A DNA stretch of 64,000 bases, from contig JAQTQB010000005.1 of NCBI GenBank assembly GCA_028712475.1, positions 107,408 to 171,407 on the forward strand. Reading direction: 5' to 3'. The stretch's first letter is position 1. The number at the start of each line of letters is the position of its first letter. The translations under genes and the position numbers were made by a program. The notes below the pieces were generated by a model. That model saw only the letters and a list, made by a program, of their open reading frames with translations, did no database searches and was not told the origin of the DNA. This document shows positions 52,303 through 54,231 of this stretch, piece after piece. The stretch is from Verrucomicrobiales bacterium (lineage in GTDB: Bacteria > Verrucomicrobiota > Verrucomicrobiia > Limisphaerales > UBA11358).

Positions 52303-52376
52303 TGGTGGGGCGAGACTCCCGGCGACCCGGTTTTTGGCAACGCTCAAGGCGGCTCGCGGGGACGCTCGTCCCACCA
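52303..52376. repeat. Complete family 2 palindromic repeat (intergenic)
   Basis: TGGTGGGGCGAGACTCCCGG (from 52303) faces GGCTCGCGGGGACGCTCGTC followed by CCACCA (to 52376); the arms are near complementary. It lies between the histidine phosphatase gene and prmA and would form a strong hairpin. Half-copies occur at 1118-1142 and 15502-15527. Confidence 0.78.
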
Positions 52377-52386
52377 AGATAAAAAT

Positions 52387-53331
52387 ATGAAATCAGCCAA
52401 ACCACTCTGTCGGATTTCCGTCATGACCACGCTTGAGGCGGAGGATGCAGTCGCCGAACTGATGGGCACAATTCTTGGTCAGTCTGCCTCGTCGCACTTC
52501 AACGTCGAGACGCGAGTTAGCGTCGTCAGCGTCTATGGCCCGCAAAAAATGATTTTGTCCCGCAGAGTCCGGGAACAAGTTTCCGCCGGGTTGAAGAAAA
52601 TCACAAGCTGCGGCCTGAATATCGGTTCCGGCAAGATTAAGACCTCAAAAGTGCGCCGCGAGGACTGGGCGGAATCGTGGAAGCGGCATTTCAAGCCGAT
52701 TGAGATTGGCGGCGCACTGCTGATCAAACCCAGCTGGATTAAGCGTCCGCCGCGCAAAAATCAGGCGGTCGTAATACTCGATCCCGGATTGAGTTTTGGC
52801 ACTGGGCAACACGCGACCACTTCTTTTTGTCTGCATCAAATTGTAGCGGCGGTTTGTGGCGTTGGCGCTGCGCGCCAAAAATCGAGCCACAGGCTCGCCG
52901 CTACAAAATCGTTTTTGGACATCGGCACGGGTTCGGGAATCCTGGCGATTGCGGCGGCGAAGCTCGGTTATAAGCCGGTGCGTGCGTTTGATTTCGATCC
53001 TGAAGCCGTCCGGATTGCGCGCGCCAATGCCCGCGTGAATCGAGTCGCAGGAAAATTAAAAATCACGCGTAATGACGCGGCAAAGCTGCCGTTGCGAGCA
53101 GCGCGGCAATATGATTTGGTCTGCGCGAATCTGATCTCCAACCTGCTCATCACGGAGCGCCGGCGGATTGTGGCGCAATTGAATCGCAGCGGAACCTTGG
53201 TCTTAGCGGGCATCTTGAAGTCAGAATTCGCGCAGGTGCAAACGGCATTTGAGGATTTGGGGCTGAAACTGGCTGCCGCAAAAAACGAAAAGGAGTGGCG
53301 TTCGGGTTCGTTTTGTTTTCCGGCAAAGTGA
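52387..53331 (+). CDS. prmA: Ribosomal protein L11 methyltransferase, with an in-frame palindromic element
   Basis: PrmA trimethylates ribosomal protein L11. The 314-residue product has the substrate-recognition N-terminus (to about 95), the linker 'REDWAESWKRHFKPIEIGG' with 'VVILDPGLSFGTGQHATTSF', and the SAM site 'FLDIGTGSGILAIAAAKLG'. Between 'ATTSFCLHQI' and 'FLDIGTGSG' lies a stretch 'VAAVCGVGAARQKSSHRLAA' encoded by the palindrome at 52841-52906. This is 22 codons, located in the region where PrmA normally has a short helix. The catalytic and SAM residues appear intact. Confidence 0.93.
   Translation: MKSAKPLCRISVMTTLEAEDAVAELMGTILGQSASSHFNVETRVSVVSVYGPQKMILSRRVREQVSAGLKKITSCGLNIGSGKIKTSKVRREDWAESWKRHFKPIEIGGALLIKPSWIKRPPRKNQAVVILDPGLSFGTGQHATTSFCLHQIVAAVCGVGAARQKSSHRLAATKSFLDIGTGSGILAIAAAKLGYKPVRAFDFDPEAVRIARANARVNRVAGKLKITRNDAAKLPLRAARQYDLVCANLISNLLITERRRIVAQLNRSGTLVLAGILKSEFAQVQTAFEDLGLKLAAAKNEKEWRSGSFCFPAK
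52841..52906. repeat. Family 3 palindromic element inside prmA
   Basis: TTGTAGCGGCG and TGTGGC in the left arm (52841-52860) are repeated on the opposite strand in the right arm ending CGCCGCTACAA (52906), with a one-base bulge. The total is 66 bases, exactly 22 codons. A small inner palindrome GGCGCTGCGCGCC lies in the loop. Confidence 0.82.
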
Positions 53332-53437
53332 GTTTCACCCGTGTTTTTACCCGGTTAAATTCATGCCCATTAGTTTTTTATTTTTTCCATTGTTACATTT
53401 AAGAAAGATTTTTGAAAATTTTGAATGACAAACGCAA

Positions 53438-53530
53438 AGTTTGGTCTCATAAACGGAGCGTGTAGGGCAGTTGGCTGTCAGGCCAGCAACAAGGAAGGCT
53501 TGAGCCGCTGCGAAGCTCCGTAACCAAACT
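53438..53530 (+). ncRNA. Structured leader RNA of unknown class
   Basis: An 8-bp outer stem pairs AGTTTGGT (53438-53445) with ACCAAACT (53523-53530). A 7-bp stem pairs ACGGAGC (53453-53459) with GCTCCGT (53515-53521). Inside are GCAG (53467-53470) pairing with CTGC (53108-based offset: 53508-53511), a hairpin TTGgCTG/CAGCAA (53471-53489) and a small GGC-TTGA-GCC hairpin (53497-53506). The outer stem ends 10 bases before the ATG of a 54-residue ORF. I could not match it to a known riboswitch core; ligand, protein or thermal sensing is all possible. The upstream stretch 53332-53437 is AT-rich with no other recognisable feature. Confidence 0.55.
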
Positions 53531-53540
53531 AAAATGCGTT

Positions 53541-53705
53541 ATGAAAAAAATGATGGAAGCCATCAGTGAGGTTGTCCGTGATACCAGCCACCCGTTCCGC
53601 AAAATGGAACATCAACCCAAGAAGCCTCTAAAAAACCGCTACGAGCGCAGGAAGATAAAGGAATACCTGCAATTGACGGACTGGCAAACGGAAGAAGCTG
53701 TTTGA
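53541..53705 (+). CDS. Small basic protein (54 residues) downstream of leader RNA
   Basis: The open frame from ATG 53541 encodes 54 residues: 'MKKMMEAISEVVRDTSHPFR', 'KMEHQPKKPLKNRYERRKIK' and 'EYLQLTDWQTEEAV'. It is basic, without membrane helices or Cys, with a C-terminal amphipathic stretch. Neither prmA upstream nor the minus-strand fur-family gene covers this region. It sits between a strongly folded leader and a good intrinsic terminator on the same strand, which supports a separate transcription unit. Later in-frame ATGs at 53550 and 53553 are possible starts. No family is recognised. It could instead be a spurious ORF on a noncoding RNA. Confidence 0.55.
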   Translation: MKKMMEAISEVVRDTSHPFRKMEHQPKKPLKNRYERRKIKEYLQLTDWQTEEAV

Positions 53706-53731
53706 AAAATTCAACACAATTTAGCTGAACG

Positions 53732-53755
53732 AGCCGCGCCCAAGCGCGGCTTTTT
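53732..53755 (+). terminator. Rho-independent terminator after the small ORF
   Basis: AGCCGCGC (53732-53739) pairs with GCGCGGCT (53744-53751) around a CCAA loop, followed by TTTTC. The T tract suits plus-strand transcription; on the minus strand the stem is not followed by Ts. It lies 27 bases after the small ORF. Confidence 0.8.
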
Positions 53756-54231
53756 CACTTTAGACGGAGTGTCTGCTGGCACTCCGGGCAGATGCCGAAA
53801 AATTCGAGCCTGTGCGTCACGGCCTTGAAGCCGTTTGCCGCCGCGATGCGTTGCTCGACTTCGGTGGGAAAACAATCGTCAATCTCCACGACTTCCGCGC
53901 ACTTGGTGCAAACGAGATGATGGTGATGGCCGTCGTCCCCTTCGCCCACAAGCTCAAACCGAGACGCTCCATCGCCGAAATGAAACCGCTTCACCATGCC
54001 CGTCTTTTCAAGCAGGTGCATGGAACGATAAATGGTCGCAAGGTCGCATTGTCCTTTGGGCAGCGCGGCCAAGATTTCCTTGTTCGTAAGCGGATGCGGA
54101 TGTTGCCGGAGAATTTCCAGAATCGCCGCGCGCGGGCCGGTGATCTTGCGCGAATGCCCGCGCAAACGATCTGTCAACGCGGACATTTCCTGGCGCTGAT
54201 GCGGATGTTTGTGCGCACAGGCTTTCATCAC
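53755..54231 (-). CDS. zur: Fur-family metal regulator, probably Zur
   Basis: The 158-residue protein has a His-rich N-terminus (MMKACAHKHPHQRQ), the winged-helix DNA reader ('ITGPRAAILEILRQHPHPLT', 'CDLATIYRSMHLLEKTGMVK'), the 'FELVGEGDDGHHHHLVC' metal segment and two C-x2-C pairs ('VCTKCAE', 'GICPECQ') that bind structural zinc. Fur-family subtype cannot be fixed by sequence alone. Zur is proposed because its start overlaps the stop of a ZIP transporter gene and because zinc-independent folE2 and ribosomal protein forms lie just upstream. It would act as a zinc-dependent repressor, possibly at 54981-55003. Confidence 0.8.
   Translation of the reverse strand: MMKACAHKHPHQRQEMSALTDRLRGHSRKITGPRAAILEILRQHPHPLTNKEILAALPKGQCDLATIYRSMHLLEKTGMVKRFHFGDGASRFELVGEGDDGHHHHLVCTKCAEVVEIDDCFPTEVEQRIAAANGFKAVTHRLEFFGICPECQQTLRLK

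Follow-up and report, generated by a model that had tools for sequence, protein, structure and literature searches.

Downstream of prmA in a metagenome-assembled genome of the Limisphaerales (Verrucomicrobia subdivision 3; 98% complete), a strongly folded leader precedes a small basic open reading frame (ORF) that ends at a terminator. The question raised by this locus is what the leader does, and which part of its fold does it. The analysis was carried out on a stretch of 64,000 nucleotides, referred to here as the window, and on relatives of the genome that contains it. An earlier note on this DNA described two nested stems of 8 and 7 bp in front of the ORF and named a new riboswitch class, an RNA thermometer, a protein-binding leader and a small RNA with a coincidental ORF as candidates.

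A small gene between prmA and fur

The gap between prmA, which encodes ribosomal protein L11 methyltransferase (52387–53331, forward strand; Pfam PF06325, E 2.5e-58), and a convergent gene for a Fur-family regulator downstream (53755–54231, reverse strand; PF01475, E 7.2e-27) is filled by a 210-nt intergenic stretch, a 54-codon ORF (53541–53705, forward strand) and an intrinsic terminator (53731–53755, forward strand). The terminator consists of a 9-bp GC-rich stem and a T run (-17.2 kcal/mol, z -3.7). Among the four close relatives compared, its hairpin is present in three (G031, G030 and G060) and decayed in the fourth (G068), which agrees with the earlier description of a good terminator after the ORF. 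Two palindromes were also observed in the vicinity, namely a GC-rich insert (TTGTAGCGGCG...CGCCGCTACAA) inside the prmA reading frame (52838–52909) and a second, short one just 5' of prmA (52359–52372).

The ORF encodes a basic protein of 54 amino acids (aa) whose core, HPFRK..KK..KNRYERRKIKEYL..DW, is strongly conserved among homologues. Such homologues were found in 58 of the 59 relatives, representing 23 of 24 genera, and in 221 of the 320 Limisphaerales genomes sampled; elsewhere in the phylum they are nearly absent (5 of 388 phylum genomes sampled, including two from the window's own genus). Many of the loci preserve the arrangement prmA - orf54 - (fur - zip) - rpsR - dksA, with the ORF usually located between prmA and fur or rpsR, and prmA is also the 5' neighbour in most homologous loci. 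Among the neighbouring genes, prmA and rpsR are translation-related and dksA is related to the stringent response. An in-frame N-terminal extension of the ORF was rejected because it is not conserved: in G031 a stop closes the frame a few codons before the ORF. Searches of the protein against Pfam, NCBIfam and PDB sequences yielded no family matches, and Foldseek yielded none with the predicted model, a mostly helical AlphaFold structure whose confidence is too low for use (pTM 0.34). On the comparative sequence evidence the ORF is a real gene of a previously uncharacterised family. The short basic ORF of the earlier note is thus borne out as a conserved gene, and on the same grounds it is not the coincidental ORF of the small-RNA candidate. 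The family spans most of an order that is known mainly from metagenome assemblies, and with it the anonymous leader becomes a testable element of an undescribed small-protein family.

Nested stems and the hairpin inside them

The nested stems constitute the minimum-energy fold of 53438–53531 (-42.7 kcal/mol, z -4.45 relative to 200 dinucleotide shuffles), and about 0.3% of GC-matched 94-nt segments of the 64 kb fold as well or better. A helix of at least 8 bp (G-U allowed) arises in 185 of the 200 shuffles of the region, so some 8-bp helix is expected by chance. The outer 8-bp stem retains just 4–5 of its 8 pairs in each of the four close relatives and the middle 8-bp helix retains 1–2 of 8, while in the nearest relative, G068, the 7-bp stem has lost the greater part of its 5' arm to a deletion.

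A promoter-like element, TTGAAT (53421–53426) - N17 - GTCTCA (53444–53449) on the forward strand, is nearly invariant across the five closest genomes. Box pairs of the form TTGAA[CT]-N15-18-GTCnnA occur in 70 of 98 upstream regions, compared with 0.3% of shuffles, and resemble ECF-sigma promoters. These boxes would place the start of the transcript at about 53456–53461. The 5' arm of the outer stem (53438–53445, forward strand), whose pairing is unconserved, lies between the two boxes, in the promoter spacer, and overlaps them, and is probably untranscribed; the 5' arm of the 7-bp stem (53453–53459) is situated at or 5' of the predicted start. Because the two arms lie in the promoter element and at or before the predicted start, respectively, they are unlikely to be fully transcribed. 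When the outer arm is left out (53455–53540), the fold falls to z -2.5, and over the full leader the nested fold is 2.8 kcal/mol better than the fold with the conserved hairpin described below. Judged by the close relatives, the large nested fold is mostly an accident of one genome: the stems described earlier are present and do form the minimum-energy fold, but they are not conserved and are not borne out as a functional unit.

The strong single-sequence fold (z -4.45) is the property that would suggest a new riboswitch or RNA thermometer formed by the nested stems. We consider this explanation very improbable, given that the stems are unconserved and lie partly outside the predicted transcript and that neither a Shine-Dalgarno sequence (SD) nor the start codon is occluded. 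The region before the start is unpaired in the fold of 53455–53540, there is no SD at the start, and the conserved fold pairs neither the start codon nor any SD, which speaks against a thermometer. As for a riboswitch, the window has no Rfam match at the gathering threshold and the region has only chance-level matches up to E 10; what is conserved amounts to one hairpin, its loop short and purine-rich, and an aptamer-like conserved core is lacking. A search of the window genome with model R1 found no second copy, which is a weak negative.

Covariation, proposed in the earlier note as a check on the nested stems, fails for these stems and is found instead for a different hairpin inside them (53467–53511, forward strand). 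This extended hairpin pairs GCAGU (53467–53471) with GCUGC (53507–53511), GGC (53473–53475) with GCC (53504–53506) and UCAGGCC (53478–53484) with GGCUUGA (53497–53503), and its apical loop AGCAACAAGGAA (53485–53496, forward strand) contains an element common to other hairpin-type leaders. The matching stretches in G068, G031, G030 and G060 each fold alone into the same extended hairpin. In a hand-made structural alignment of the five genomes, with gaps padded with N, 98.6% of the pairs are retained and three pairs are changed on both sides (one position, for instance, has A-U, U-G and C-G). The covariation score, which rests on these three pairs, is 0.293, compared with 0.144 shuffled (1 of 500) and 0–0.067 when the partners are slid; sliding also lowers the pairing to 24–60%. 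By these comparisons the hairpin inside the nested stems is evolutionarily supported.

An explanation that needs no regulatory role is that the hairpin merely protects the mRNA 5' end, or arises as a by-product of a GC-rich leader, its conservation reflecting shared ancestry. Exactly this hairpin occurs in the five close genomes only, where 10 of its 15 pairs are invariant. However, the three double-changed pairs, the far lower values of the slid controls and the recurrence of the loop at the same position in distant families (see below) argue against it, and we regard it as improbable although deserving some weight.

Two leader types and the recurring loop

A sigma54-type element, TGGCAY-N7-GC, is found 42–74 nt 5' of the start in 63 of the 98 upstream regions, compared with 2% of shuffles, and also upstream of distant homologues outside the order; neither the window nor any of its four closest relatives has this -24/-12 element upstream of the gene. 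The presence of rpoN was rejected as the divider of the two groups of leaders because rpoN occurs in the window genome and in 57 of 58 relatives. In an enlarged set, CAAGG is located in a hairpin loop in 18 of the 55 leaders that lack the sigma54-type element, where 1.3 are expected, and in none of the 80 leaders that have it (Fisher p 1.4e-8), counts which overstate independence since the leader sequences are mutually related. All 18 hairpins fall between about -56 and -68 relative to the start codon, and their stems differ completely (GGCCUG/CAGGCC, GAGACGC/GCGUCUC, GGCGCUA/UAGCGCU and others). In the leaders of this gene that were compared, the CAAGG-loop hairpin and the sigma54-type element are mutually exclusive. 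The loop has some resemblance to the 16S rRNA stretch GUAACAAGGUAACC, but GG is followed by A in the majority of leaders and by U in 16S rRNA.

An SD is found at the start of the 54-aa gene in 91% of the sigma54-type members as opposed to 19% of the hairpin-type members (Fisher p 2e-10), and the latter show AAGGA in the leader loop. Since SD sequences are otherwise rare in the lineage, the SD at this gene, which is of moderate strength in the relatives (about -5 kcal/mol), is not background: SD cores in the same loci occur at 11% for PrmA, 6% for Fur, 5% for ZIP and 5% for DksA, and at 12% in random 15-mers. Some Verrucomicrobia (Akkermansia and another Verrucomicrobium) are among the lineages listed as SD-scarce (PMC10783764). 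There is no SD before 53541, and 11 of the 12 window genes checked, including the 54-aa gene, lack one; the missing SD of the window is unremarkable by itself, its absence being usual in the lineage. A gene that keeps its SD among SD-scarce bacteria is a good entry to what SD sequences still do there.

Plain MAFFT alignments of the leaders were too poor for RNAalifold, and a covariance model of the wider group was therefore built from twelve manually segmented and structured members with linkers masked by N, which makes the model lean toward structure. The alignment, fitted by hand, contains 52 cells changed on both sides compared with 18 when shuffled. The model recovers the untrained leader L012 in its correct position (E 0.0057 in a search of 164 kb), picks up L203 and L198 weakly, and has no match to the window or the window clade. 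Because the window clade is missed, the window hairpin would be a simpler relative or a convergent form, and the case for its homology with the leaders of families f9 and f116 is made by the loop, by where the loop lies and by the SD pattern. The conservation of the f9/f116 leaders may partly reflect coding, because an upstream ORF is open to the start codon there.

This coding potential leads to the explanation that the hairpin serves an upstream ORF, with translation of the leader followed by reinitiation on the 54-aa gene through coupling at an AUGA overlap. In the f9 and f116 families a frame beginning with an AUG at about -86 to -93 stays open as far as the main start, either fused to it or ending in AUGA, and most of the main starts have no SD; translational coupling may matter in these families. 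In the window, on the other hand, no upstream ORF that begins with ATG inside the predicted transcript extends to the start. Within the window clade the frames are broken by indels of 1 and 11 nt, and the reading frame across the loop differs among groups, and we consider a hairpin serving an upstream ORF unlikely. Short upstream ORFs, roughly 30 codons long, with a stop codon that forms AUGA together with the start codon of the 54-aa gene, were observed in L087, L093, L107, L114, L193 and L203, some of them with a good SD (CTGAGGTAATTATG).

Proposed control by the leader hairpin

The best reading of the whole, to which we would give an even chance, is translational or autogenous control by the leader hairpin with the AAGGA loop. 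The unit would be a monocistronic mRNA of about 300 nt, consisting of a stress-type (ECF-like) promoter, a leader of 80–85 nt, the gene and the terminator. The functional part of the leader would be the single hairpin at 53467–53511, which would display ACAAGGA(A) about 50 nt 5' of a start codon that lacks an SD. The control would most likely be translational, with the loop bound either by the ribosome, AAGGA being SD-like, or by an RNA-binding protein; a candidate binder is the basic 54-aa product itself, and binding to the loop would set the output of the protein. In most relatives the same gene would instead rely on a promoter of the sigma54 type, together with a short leader and a conventional SD. 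We infer the loop to be a binding site, and likewise the translational level and direction of the control and the identity of the binder. Among the options listed in the earlier note, a leader bound by a protein or the ribosome is the best one remaining, with a binder that is putative.

The CsrA consensus is RUACARGGAUGU, with GGA in the loop. As in CsrA/RsmA leader hairpins, ACAAGGA is present here in the loop of a 5'-leader hairpin, and the motif and its hairpin context fit the consensus (an ACARGGA-type site in AGCAACAAGGAA). However, the 98% complete window genome has no PF02599 match and hence no CsrA gene, and PF02599 is likewise absent from six other genomes whose leaders are hairpin-type or related (G030, G031, G043, G044, G045 and G053); 22 of 58 relatives do encode CsrA (PF02599). 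A CsrA/RsmA site is largely refuted for the window genome, and we give it hardly any credence.

The closest precedent, by analogy only, is rpsU of Flavobacterium johnsoniae, the gene for bS21, which is autoregulated through an SD ignored by ordinary ribosomes in that organism (PMC9976891). In both cases a small basic-protein gene carries an SD-type element in a lineage that rarely uses SD. In contrast to rpsU, the 54-aa protein is not bS21 (it has no S21 match, and a separate S21 gene is found elsewhere in the genome), the SD in the relatives amounts to about -5 kcal/mol rather than below -13, and the AAGGA of the window lies well away from the start, inside a hairpin loop, with no SD at the start codon. 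Autogenous ribosomal-protein leaders are similar in that a structured leader is combined with a small basic-protein gene, here beside rpsR and prmA; they differ in that the present leader matches no Rfam leader and RNA binding by the 54-aa protein is putative. Structured ribosome standby sites (PMC3936740) offer a further likeness, namely a structured leader with a candidate ribosome-binding single-stranded element 5' of the start; the window loop, whose role is putative, differs in having a conserved sequence beyond being unstructured. A more far-reaching proposal, and a long shot in our estimation, is that the 54-aa protein associates with the ribosome as a factor specific to this lineage and controls access to the anti-Shine-Dalgarno sequence in an SD-scarce order, with its own gene feedback-controlled via an SD-type element (at the start codon in the sigma54-type members and in the hairpin loop in the window type).

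The family appears to have switched between two modes of control, a sigma54-type promoter with an SD and a structured leader with an AAGGA loop. In the hybrid leaders L012, L189, L206 and L197, a -24/-12-like element coincides with the 3' half of the stems in the RNA (GGCAT..TTCACGC or a similar sequence), which suggests how one mode could become the other. The idea that the leaders share an RNA structure around the sigma54-type element was considered and rejected: the arms pair better with their own partners than with swapped ones (permutation p 0.0008), yet this holds for only 42 of 80 sequences and is driven by one subclade. In one subclade (L011, L014, L015, L018, L021, L031, L037, L038, L060 and L125) the element is enclosed by a stem of 8–13 bp whose arms covary, as in CGGGCUGAUAGC / GCUAUCAGUCCG with TTGGCATTGTTTAC left in the loop, a feature that is not general. 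The leader of the homologue L055 contains a perfect 17-bp hairpin, and in most sigma54-type loci the three positions right before the start codon lean strongly towards GCT (G in 55, C in 48 and T in 65 of 80).
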